Shown here: positions 722 to 5,269 of the stretch, in pieces
Layout of the letters: each line of letters opens with the position of its first letter
Position numbering within the stretch: the first letter of the stretch is position 1
NCBI GenBank assembly: GCA_014859225.1
Contig: JACUUP010000093.1
Span: 1-5,646, forward strand
Reading direction: 5' to 3'
DNA from: Candidatus Aerophobota bacterium
Lineage (GTDB): Bacteria; Aerophobota; Aerophobia; Aerophobales; B3-G15
DNA: 5,646 nucleotides
The notes under the pieces: generated by a model
Told to the model about the DNA's origin: nothing
What the model saw: the letters and a program-made list of their open reading frames with translations, nothing else
The model's database searches: none
Translations under genes and position numbers: made by a program

Positions 722-804
722 GTTTTTATACGATTACAATGTATCATAATTTCGTATAATACGCAATTTAATTACTAAACTATGAAAACACTTCGTATAA
801 AAAC
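722..804. repeat. CGTATAA cluster with 12-bp perfect inverted repeat
   Basis: GTTTTTATACGA (722-733) is the exact reverse complement of 793-804. Between them lies the odd palindrome CGTATAATACG (753-763), and TTCGTATAA occurs twice in direct orientation (751-759 and 792-800). The cluster fills the gap between the truncated recombinase (minus) and the left end of the HNH cassette (plus). In an integron this is the place of attI and the cassette promoter. The TATAAT at 755-760 could be a -10 box, but I see no good -35. A recombinase binding site or promoter/operator region is plausible but unproven. Confidence 0.5.
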
Positions 805-828
805 GAGTTATGTGAAATATTTATTGGC
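804..828 (+). repeat. Left 25-bp inverted repeat flanking the HNH gene
   Basis: The 25 bases here match the reverse complement of 1185-1209 at 22 of 25 positions (three mismatches). The conserved core is GTTATGTGA followed by TATTTATTGGC. The repeats enclose only the HNH gene and define a 406-bp unit. GTTATGT (807-813) resembles the GTT-start core of integron recombination sites, though it does not fully match GTTRRRY. Confidence 0.85.
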
Positions 829-853
829 TACCTTTTACTAAAAACAAAGTAAT

Positions 854-1171
854 ATGAATAATTGGAACATTCCTAGTTGGCTTGAAGCAGAAGTTCGCAA
901 AAGAGATACACATTGTATTTATTGTGGTGTTAAGTTTGACAGAAACATCAAGAAACATTCAGCAACTTGGGAGCATATTGTGAATGATGCAAAAATTATA
1001 AATAGAGAAAATATAGCATTGTGTTGCTGTTCCTGTAACGCTAGCAAAGGTGCAAAAGAATTATCAGATTGGATAACTTCTGCTTACTGTAAAAGAAAGA
1101 ATATTACTATTGAAAATGTTGCACCTATAGTAAAGCAAGCCTTAGATAATCCGCCAACTAGAAAAGAATAA
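854..1171 (+). CDS. Small HNH endonuclease
   Basis: The 105-residue protein is a compact HNH nuclease. Zinc-binding cysteines are C21 and C24 (CIYCG) and C58 and C61 (CCCSCN). The catalytic histidine is H41 in ATWEH, and the motif asparagine is N53, followed by IALC and then NASKG. The length and the C-terminal part (DWITSAYCKRK, then VAPIVKQAL) fit, from memory, a family of stand-alone HNH proteins of about 100-110 residues; some occur in mobile cassettes and defence islands. It probably nicks or cuts DNA, using one divalent metal ion, but the target is unknown. The ATG at 854 has no clear ribosome site, as is common for cassette genes. It is the only gene inside the 25-bp inverted repeats and lies beside recombinase relics on both sides, which suggests it moved here as a unit. 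All motif residues are present. Confidence 0.88.
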   Translation: MNNWNIPSWLEAEVRKRDTHCIYCGVKFDRNIKKHSATWEHIVNDAKIINRENIALCCCSCNASKGAKELSDWITSAYCKRKNITIENVAPIVKQALDNPPTRKE

Positions 1172-1184
1172 TACTTGTAGAACC

Positions 1185-1209
1185 GCCAATAAATACATCA
1201 CATAACACG
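1185..1209 (-). repeat. Right 25-bp inverted repeat flanking the HNH gene
   Basis: This is the reverse-complement partner of 804-828 (22 of 25 identical) and begins 13 bases after the HNH stop codon. Its outer end, ACATAAC, is complementary to the GTTATGT core of the left copy. Confidence 0.85.
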
Positions 1210-1340
1210 GTATATGGGGTTCGATAATTTTTGCTCAATTAGATTCAAAGGACTGCAAAAATCATCTCTCCCAAATTTGCCTCACACTATTGATAAAAAT
1301 TAAGGAGTTCGGCAAACTTCCCACATATCGAAACGTTATC
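1201..1340 (+). other. Possible attC-like site
   Basis: Outer arms ATAAC (1202-1206) and GTTAT (1335-1339), and inner arms TATATGGGG (1211-1219) and CCCACATAT (1320-1328, pairing with a bulge), form a large imperfect inverted repeat of about 140 bases. It is immediately 3' of the HNH gene. Position, size and the AAC...GTT ends resemble an integron attC site, in which case the cassette would run from 808 to about 1335. The cores do not match the RYYYAAC/GTTRRRY consensus exactly, so this is a suggestion to be tested by folding, not an identification. Confidence 0.3.
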
Positions 1341-1383
1341 GGTAAGATTTTAGGGAAAGAAAAGATTGATTCAGAAGTAAGAT

Positions 1384-3370: not shown

Positions 3371-3480
3371 CAGCCAATTCGAGCAAAAGCTCTTTTGTGT
3401 TCTCTTCGCCTTCTATATCTACCCTTCGCATATTTCCGGGTTCCGTCTTTCTCTTTATGTTTTATAGCCTTCTCAAAAAG
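3370..3480 (-). other. Possible C-terminal frameshift in the nuclease gene
   Basis: The nuclease gene ends DKTF then TGA, just after a run of five T. One base fewer in that run would continue the protein as TFEKAIKHKEKDGTRKYAKG and on to a stop at 3370. The fused methyltransferase relatives, as I recall them, end with T-F-K-K-A-x-K-x-K, which fits the shifted frame. The missing tail is outside the catalytic core, so the protein may still fold. A sequencing or assembly slip is equally possible. Confidence 0.4.
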
Positions 3481-4057
3481 TCTTATCCACGGCAGCCATT
3501 CCTTCGGGTGGGCGTTGTATTTCTTTGCCATTAAATAATTCCTCTATGGTGAAGATCTGAATCTTAGGATACTGCTTACCAAAAGGGGATTTGTAGAAGC
3601 CTGAAGATACAGCCTCTTCTCTCATCTCTTTGGTAGGCTCTTGCAGGGTTATTAAAACTCCTATGTGAGCTTTTTCTCTTTCAAGAACACCTTTTAAGTC
3701 TGTGATTACCCCCGGATTAACTTCCCCACTTTTAACCTGAACAATAATTTTCTTTGTCTGTTTTCCCTCAGGGTCATCGCGAAAATATATTCTTCCGTCA
3801 ATTCCCCTGTCTGCAACATCGCTTGGTTCAGGCTTTGCTTTGACAAGGCTTAAAGCCCAATTTCGAAACTGAACCCTATCCCTCAAAGCTAAATCCTCAG
3901 CATCTCTAAGAAAGGTAGGAATATTTTTGACATCATACCCACCAAAGCCTCCAAAAGTTTCGTTTAGTTTGCCTCGTAATAATAACCAAATGAATCCCCC
4001 AACACCGATAAAGAATAATAGTTGGCTGATTGCCATGAAGATTTCTCCTGAGCTCAT
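3473..4057 (-). CDS. Membrane-anchored PD-(D/E)XK (Mrr-like) nuclease domain
   Basis: The 194-residue protein has one N-terminal membrane helix (residues 10-27, ISQLLFFIGVGGFIWLLL) followed by R/K, then a domain that I recognise as the C-terminal part of DNA adenine methyltransferase fusions: the D-R-V-Q-F-x-x-W-A-L-S-L-V segment, then DRGIDGRIYF (D87 likely catalytic), IIVQVKSG (Q107 and K109 as the Q-x-K pair), and L-E-R-E-K-A-x-x-G-V-L-I-T-L, E-P-T-K-x-M-R-E-E-A. This is the restriction-endonuclease (Mrr) fold. In relatives the methyltransferase stands before this domain; here it is absent and a membrane helix takes its place. ATG 4057 is chosen because GGAGG lies nine bases upstream; ATG 4036 also has AGGAG. 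Homology may continue past the stop (see frameshift note). Targets are unknown. Confidence 0.72.
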   Translation of the reverse strand: MSSGEIFMAISQLLFFIGVGGFIWLLLRGKLNETFGGFGGYDVKNIPTFLRDAEDLALRDRVQFRNWALSLVKAKPEPSDVADRGIDGRIYFRDDPEGKQTKKIIVQVKSGEVNPGVITDLKGVLEREKAHIGVLITLQEPTKEMREEAVSSGFYKSPFGKQYPKIQIFTIEELFNGKEIQRPPEGMAAVDKTF

Positions 4058-4220
4058 TTCCAAGCTCCTCCCTTGCGTATACAAATGGCTTCCTTGCGAA
4101 CAGGTGGAAGCTAAAGTATCGTAAATAGGATTTGTAATGTTTCCACCCCGGGCCTTATAACCCGGACTAAACCTTATTTTGGGTCATTTTCTAACTACAA
4201 AACCTGTGGCATTAGAATCC

Positions 4221-4513: not shown

Positions 4514-4783
4514 TTAGAGCATACGTATTTTATGTTCTGCCTCTTTTTGAGTCATTTCGTAAGAAATCTTTGCCTGTAATGTAATGAGGTCCTTTTTCAG
4601 CAGCTCTTTTTCTCTTTCTTTTTCTTCTGGTGCAGGAAAAGCCTTACTCTTGAACGCATGTATTTTCTCCTCTATCTCTTGGAAGTATTTCTTGTCCCTT
4701 CTTTTAATCAGCAGGGCCCATACACGGGATATGCAGGTAGCAAGTATGAGCCCAATCATTATCCCGAGGATGATGCCGCCTAT
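4514..4783 (-). CDS. One-helix membrane protein with cytoplasmic coiled coil, family unknown
   Basis: The protein has an N-terminal membrane helix (IIGGIILGIMIGLILATCIS), a basic stop-transfer patch (LLIKRRDKK) and a soluble, highly charged helical tail (EEIEEKIHAFK, then EEKEREKELLKKDLITLQAK) predicted to form a coiled coil. A perfect ribosome site, AAGGAGG (4793-4799), precedes it, and the frame is closed upstream by TGA at 4802-4804. Between these and the ATG at 4759 there is no AUG, GUG or UUG. A start at the ATA at 4783 (spacer 9) or ATC at 4786 (spacer 6) keeps the full membrane helix; starting at ATG 4759 (81 residues, 33 bases from the ribosome site) would remove half of it. I therefore extend the gene to 4783, with the start uncertain. 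The 5' end is repeated at window start. Confidence 0.6.
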   Translation of the reverse strand: MGGIILGIMIGLILATCISRVWALLIKRRDKKYFQEIEEKIHAFKSKAFPAPEEKEREKELLKKDLITLQAKISYEMTQKEAEHKIRML

Positions 4784-4842
4784 GATAGCTATCCTCCTTC
4801 CTCACCGGTTACAATTGTCTCTTCGGCAAAAGTTCCGATAAC
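4752..4842. repeat. Direct repeat copy B (partner 1-93)
   Basis: This 91-bp copy spans the start of the coiled-coil membrane protein gene and the last codons of the truncated PIN toxin. The right boundary, TTCCGATAAC at 4833-4842, is also where the PIN toxin stops resembling its family. One of the two substitutions (4817, A to G on the plus strand) changes the TAA found in copy A to CAA, adding two codons to the toxin. Confidence 0.95.
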
Positions 4843-4994
4843 ACTCTTTCTACCTCATCTAACAACGGTTTGGAAAGATAGAGCTTTATTTCCCCCGCTA
4901 ACGCCAAGCTATAAATTTGTCTTTCATTACTTTTTAGTTGCAACAAAGAAGAAATTAAAACATTTGTGTCCAATACTACTTTTGTCTTGCCCAC
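4809..4994 (-). pseudogene. PIN-domain toxin, C-terminally truncated
   Basis: The first ~53 of 61 residues are those of the COG1569-like PIN toxin family: KVVLDTNVLISSLL with D9, then SNERQIYSLALAGEIKLYLS and LLDEVERVLS with the conserved acidic residue at 46-47. Family members have about 130-145 residues. The second half with the other two catalytic aspartates is missing, because the gene runs into the direct repeat and ends ELLPKRQL. In copy A of the repeat the same bases end the small membrane protein (IGTLLPKR). The toxin is therefore a chimera and should have lost nuclease activity. It starts with GTG at 4994 inside the antitoxin gene (19-base overlap), typical of a TA operon. Confidence 0.8.
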
Positions 4995-5230
4995 TTAACA
5001 GCATCCTCAATGTCTTTATCTGTAATACCAAGTTGTTTGACTTTTTTATCTAAGATTGAAACTAACTTGTTGAATTCTTCTTCCGGAGATACCCTTGCTT
5101 TTTTTAACACAACTCTTTCCCCCTCCTGGGCAAAAAGGATAAAGTCCCCTGGCGCAATTCCTAATTTTTCTCTGACCTCTTTAGGTATGGTAACCTGTCC
5201 TTTAAAGCTTACCTTGCTTGGATAACGCAT
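4976..5230 (-). CDS. AbrB/SpoVT-family antitoxin
   Basis: The 84-residue protein begins MRYPSKVSFKGQVTIPKEVR, the swapped-hairpin AbrB fold: K-G-Q-V-T-I-P-K-x-V-R-x-x-L-G-I-x-P-G-D at residues 10-29, then the second half GERVVLKK. The C-terminal 35 residues (from about 50) are helical and charged, and would neutralise the toxin. It is the antitoxin of the overlapping PIN gene. Start ATG 5230 is preferred over the TTG at 5248 because GAGGAGG lies nine bases before it. A palindrome directly upstream (5247-5269) is the likely autoregulatory operator. Since the partner toxin is truncated, this antitoxin may be an orphan, kept perhaps as a repressor or through cross-neutralisation. Confidence 0.88.
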   Translation of the reverse strand: MRYPSKVSFKGQVTIPKEVREKLGIAPGDFILFAQEGERVVLKKARVSPEEEFNKLVSILDKKVKQLGITDKDIEDAVKWARQK

Positions 5231-5246
5231 CTTTATATTCCTCCTC

Positions 5247-5269
5247 AAAAGTAAAGAAGTTTTACTTTT
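5247..5269. promoter_or_regulatory. Palindromic operator upstream of the AbrB antitoxin
   Basis: AAAAGTAAA (5247-5255) and TTTACTTTT (5261-5269) form a perfect 9-bp inverted repeat around a 5-base centre. It lies between the -10 box and the ribosome site, where bound antitoxin would block transcription. AbrB-type antitoxins usually repress their own operon at such palindromes. Confidence 0.7.

Follow-up and report, generated by a model that had tools for sequence, protein, structure and literature searches.

The window, i.e. the whole stretch of DNA analysed here, is a complete contig of 5646 bp from a 1.8 Mb genome assembly (273 contigs, 91% complete) of a sparsely sampled phylum, and it probably contains a single integron-type gene cassette that carries a lone HNH nuclease gene (Table 1). 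This reading best explains the anatomy of the unit, its borders, the computed hairpin of its joined ends and the presence of related HNH genes in cassettes of other bacteria. The original prediction had already considered a cassette, and the borders, the cassette-borne relatives and the merged hairpin of the circular form bear this out, whereas a canonical site geometry, an array and an intact integrase were not found. Evidence against the cassette reading comprises the presence of one site only and no array, the integrase searches, the non-canonical spacers and extrahelical base, the E value of 1.1 with the Flavobacteriaceae site model and the lack of an Rfam match.

Table 1. Features of the cassette region (positions in the window; ^ marks the point between G and TT)
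Feature	Position	Strand	Evidence or remark
N-terminal remnant of XerA/IntI-like tyrosine recombinase, points away from cassette	449–691	−	NF040815 E 0.026; TIGR02249 E 0.064
12-bp perfect inverted repeat GTTTTTATACGA / TCGTATAAAAAC	722–804		abuts cassette start; fold z −3.06
Possible recipient half-site (attI-like or other insertion) ...TATAAAAACGAG^TT	790–807	+	predicted
Cassette start arm GTTATGTGAAATATTTATTGGC	807–828	+	pairs with 1185–1206, 20/22 complementary, A/G at position 11
Gene cassette, 528 bp (probable)	808–1335	+	first base after G^TT to G preceding next TT; inverted repeat 804–828/1185–1209 and AAC...GTT site
HNH nuclease gene, 105 aa	854–1171	+	Pfam PF01844 E 0.0015, just below curated cut-off
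Cassette end arm, ends in R''-like box	1185–1206	+	complementary to start arm
attC-like site, 142 nt (R'', spacer A, stem, spacer AAAC, R')	1200–1341	+	stem shuffles, folds
R''-like box ACATAAC	1200–1206		
Stem arm CGGTATATGGGG	1208–1219		
Stem arm CCCACATATCG	1320–1330		
R'-like box GTTATCG	1335–1341		
IntI-like N-terminal remnant MTDRKKPGLLDQVR*VIRVKHY, in-frame stop	1384–1449 (end approximate)	+	ATG at 1384, direct reading
IS21-like remnant cutting intI-like gene	1450–1955 (ends approximate)		57-aa transposase N-terminal fragment at 1572–1745

Cassette borders and the joined-end hairpin

The 25-bp inverted ends noted earlier are real (22 of 25 positions complementary). Their best arm score is 16, a value reached by none of 1000 dinucleotide shuffles of 691–1345 (maximum 15), and with the repeat anchored on GTT...AAC none of 20 000 shuffles gave a match. 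Between 807–828 and 1185–1206 there are nine pairs, two mismatches (AA/TG) and 11 further pairs, and the first bases of the unit (GTT...) are complementary to its own R'' box, as is expected of an integron cassette. The imperfect AAC...GTT inverted repeat that had been noticed after the gene is likewise present, with the layout R''–L''...L'–R' and a length at the upper limit of the published attC range of 57–142 nt (PMC2727003). Its stem, whose spacers measure 1 and 4 nt, was equalled at this place in 33 of 3000 shuffles. In the fold suggested as a check on this repeat, the bottom strand (z −2.28) folds better than the top strand (z −1.27).

In its architecture of one gene plus an imperfect repeat with R'' ending in AAC and R' beginning with GTT, in the complementarity of its start to its own R'', in the favoured bottom-strand fold and in its 142-nt site, the unit resembles the cassettes of class 1 and sedentary chromosomal integrons. 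It differs from them in the extent of complementarity (20/22 versus 9–11), in its spacers (1/4 versus about 5/5), and in having no array and no integrase gene. The symmetric unpaired central spacer and the extrahelical base in L'' of canonical attC sites are absent, and the bulge of the window's site is located on the L'–R' arm. A scan for canonical attC geometry found no site in the window, and an Rfam search returned nothing in either the window or the Muriicola array described below. Clusters of attC sites lacking an integrase and single attC sites (CALIN, in IntegronFinder terms) share with the window a cassette without functional intI, but the window's one site falls short of the threshold of two (PMC9024848). 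The earlier label of an unusual cassette type is apt for the non-canonical spacer and extrahelical-base geometry, but not for the long ends, which are no argument against an integron cassette. Pairing past the 7-nt R boxes, to 9–11 nt, has already been reported for most cassettes (PMC2727003), and in the Flavobacteriaceae arrays it extends to 14–22 nt; the view that 25-bp ends point away from an integron is therefore not supported.

To model the circular form, the unit was excised at the G^TT point of each end and 1335 was joined to 808. Across this junction, the computed fold is a single uninterrupted hairpin built from the 25-bp ends together with the arms of the attC-like site, at −31.4 kcal/mol for the bottom strand (z −7.0, 0 of 300 shuffles) and −26.3 kcal/mol for the top strand, the preference expected of attC; when arranged as in the integrated form, this stretch reaches only −15.5 kcal/mol (z −1.4). 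As the circle unites the two repeats in a single hairpin, the 25-bp ends are read as an extended cassette arm and not as transposon termini; a transposon with 25-bp termini beside an unrelated repeat would not predict such a joined hairpin. The long ends thus find an explanation in the hairpin that a circular cassette would form as single-stranded DNA, and the window offers an exceptionally clear case of an extended arm outside the R boxes.

In the proposed mechanism, the bottom strand of the free circle would fold over the 1335/808 junction into a long hairpin of start arm, R boxes and L-like stem; a tyrosine recombinase would cleave this hairpin at the G^TT point and insert the cassette at a G^TT site. 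On this reading, the present location of the cassette is a G^TT site next to degenerate recombinase genes, and it can probably no longer move unless an integrase is supplied in trans. The unit has a single copy in its own genome, the site recurs neither there nor in the 17 genomes of the phylum, and no target duplication was seen at the ends of the unit.

The HNH cargo and the decayed recombinases

The single small gene that had been placed between the 25-bp arms is indeed there and encodes an HNH protein. Both CxxC pairs, E40 H41, N53 and N62 (alignment numbering) are invariant in 21 aligned sequences, which supplies the hallmarks of an HNH endonuclease, namely the invariant His and Asn and the two CxxC pairs, i.e. 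the catalytic and zinc residues. In all likelihood the protein is an active small nuclease and would serve as cargo, the usual guess at its role being defence against foreign DNA. Scanning one genome per species yielded 85 loci with relatives, of which 80 were kept (50–68% identity, many phyla), while searches of plasmids and of viral contigs each returned a single relative (43% identity in the plasmid search), and no further copy was found in the window's own genome or in 17 genomes of the phylum. Most relatives are lone genes with unrelated neighbours and no cassette borders, which lends no support to the earlier idea that the enzyme could help its own unit to spread. At least nine of them, however, sit between complementary GTT.../...AAC ends, several with adjoining recognizable attC sites, and the HNH gene is therefore a recurrent cargo of cassettes. 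The cassette-borne relatives occur in Methylotenera (L009, L012), Nitrospiraceae (L018), Marinobacter (L019, L027, L036, L054), Saccharospirillaceae (L068) and Muriicola (L072).

Recombinase remnants lie on both sides of the cassette, as originally described. On the left, about 39 aa are similar to the N-termini of XerA and IntI, and no continuation of this remnant was found in any frame. The right remnant looks like the start of IntI when judged by eye over 22 codons, a length too short for any profile; the earlier wording ‘clearly IntI-like’ is accordingly plausible. It is broken by a stop and by the IS21-like remnant, whose transposase fragment matches transpos_IS21 weakly (NF033546, E 0.038) and which contains internal inverted repeats (1506–1526/1865–1885). 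Joined without the cassette, the flanks at 807 and 1336 read AAAAACGAG followed by TTATCGGTAAG. The hairpin at 722–804 was considered as the attC of a preceding or reversed cassette and rejected, the R'/R'' box being absent at the expected place. The window holds no intact integrase, its flanking recombinases being short N-terminal remnants. An integron-integrase profile retrieved only XerC/XerD-type recombinases from the window's own 91% complete genome, no integron integrase was found at E 1e-40 in 17 genomes of the phylum, and no intI gene with the IntI-specific insertion was present in the window or its own genome. The cassette is stranded beside these remnants.

Cassette arrays in Flavobacteriaceae

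In Muriicola jejuensis (G017, L072), the HNH gene lies inside a tandem array of attC-like repeats. A covariance model derived from the Muriicola sites (R1) matches 83 sites in this genome, where superintegron-like arrays were observed at L072, L092 (C22:123–5211) and L136–L141. Other genomes gave weaker, often clustered R1 matches; a match was obtained in 20 of 41 genomes, a figure that includes Muriicola, and arrays of the same kind with recombinase homologues were seen in other Flavobacteriaceae (L142, L143, L144, L145–L152). A second model, built from 22 diverse sites (R2), identified 153 sites in 18 regions, always on a single strand within a region. These arrays apparently represent a widespread and undescribed integron-like cassette system, no description having been found in the open-licence literature, with an earlier account elsewhere being possible. 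IntegronFinder 2.0 reported one complete integron in Bacteroidetes proper (Salinibacter ruber), where only In0 had been known earlier (PMC9024848). Muriicola jejuensis by itself contributes about 80 sites, and the arrays, if functional, would give access to a large pool of cassettes that seemingly escapes standard integron finders. The Flavobacteriaceae arrays are more novel than the window, which is a variant of a known cassette type.

Neighbouring sites delimit 131 cassettes (L092, L136–L151), in which the cassette's own start and own end are complementary at 89–98% for positions 4–9 (30–51% in mismatched-pair controls), at 69% for position 10 and at 77–94% for positions 12–14 (controls 37–65%), falling to background thereafter. 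Position 11 is almost never complementary; in 88% of the cassettes, an A at the start stands against a G (complement of the end), which results in a G.T wobble on the bottom strand.

The Muriicola array is headed at one end by a gene for a 314-aa tyrosine recombinase that reads in the same direction as the cassettes. This recombinase scores above the cut-off of the XerA-type model (221.8 vs 220 bits) but below that of the integron-integrase model (199.5 vs 265), to which it aligns in two pieces. Compared with the Vibrio IntI structure (2a3v), it has 18 residues in place of about 61 and so lacks the IntI-specific insertion. Published accounts treat this insertion as a defining or essential feature of integrons (PMC9668308; PMC8138268), and a Muriicola-type recombinase, if functional, would test the need for the IntI domain in cassette recombination. 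Homologues with 40–56% identity occur near same-strand sites in three genomes, G029 (L142, at a distance of 231 bp from the first site detected), G042 (L143, a copy interrupted by a stop) and G023 (L144). Many of the homologues are extended at the N-terminus (e.g. 394 aa in L142).

Alternative origins and contig setting

As a special case of the integron-type cassette, the unit might be a transferred member of this separate, undescribed Flavobacteriaceae system, i.e. of a Bacteroidota-type integron-like system with an XerA-like recombinase lacking the IntI insertion, which would imply long cassette-specific arm hairpins and exchange across phyla. We regard such an origin as possible, though rather unlikely. 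At position 11, the window carries the A/G found in 88% of the 131 Flavobacteriaceae cassettes, in an arm that is longer and better scoring than any of them (score 18, length 22; best of the 131, score 16), and the AA/TG at positions 10–11 of its start arm is identical in two Muriicola cassettes. Both site types have asymmetric spacers (1/4 in the window, 2/5–6 in Flavobacteriaceae), the extrahelical base is lacking in L'', one HNH relative of the same family is itself a cassette of the Muriicola array, and local sequence likeness is seen between AACACGGTATATGG and AACAACGTATATAG and between CATATCGAAACGTT and CATATACAAAACCGTT. On the other side, the R2 model places its full length exactly on 1200–1339 of the plus strand with an insignificant score (7.1 bits, E 1.1), and R1, built on Muriicola only, has no match in the window. 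The Flavobacteriaceae arrays are long and headed by a recombinase co-directional with the cassettes, whereas both remnants in the window read away and the right one looks like ordinary IntI. The comparison suggests likeness to the Flavobacteriaceae sites, short of membership.

A small transposon-like element bounded by the 25-bp terminal repeats (804–1209), which carries or is mobilized by the HNH nuclease and merely neighbours the AAC...GTT repeat, could account for terminal repeats that exceed the usual cassette length, yet it is improbable: no transposase is present, the two repeats combine as a single arm, the borders coincide with the GTT/AAC boxes, and the relatives share cassette borders and not the window's ends. 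A transposon or MITE with 25-bp ends was rejected on the single copy and the lack of a duplication. Slightly less probable still are chance or regulatory repeats (a terminator or leader) around an ordinary gene, which would fit an AT-rich region and the modest fold of the integrated form and are countered by both shuffle tests, by the joined-end fold and by the cassette-borne relatives. Most doubtful of these readings is that of a homing-type endonuclease, in which the HNH protein would drive the spread of its own unit; the HNH motif is intact and the gene is scattered over many phyla, but the ten loci inspected are surrounded by unrelated genes and share no common neighbourhood.

With respect to the contig itself, an 81-bp direct repeat (98% identical) occupies positions 1–81 and 4752–4832, and because the contig start falls within it, the contig probably broke at a repeat. 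An orphan protein encoded on the contig has a weak relative (36–40%) in a genome of the same order, which mildly supports correct binning of the contig. The minus strand additionally encodes a toxin–antitoxin-like pair of a PIN protein with a small upstream partner (2168–2891), a 203-aa protein combining a hydrophobic N-terminal stretch with an Mrr_cat/NA-iREase1-type nuclease domain (3473–4084), and a second toxin–antitoxin-like pair of a truncated PIN_3 protein and a MazE-type antitoxin (4809–5248).
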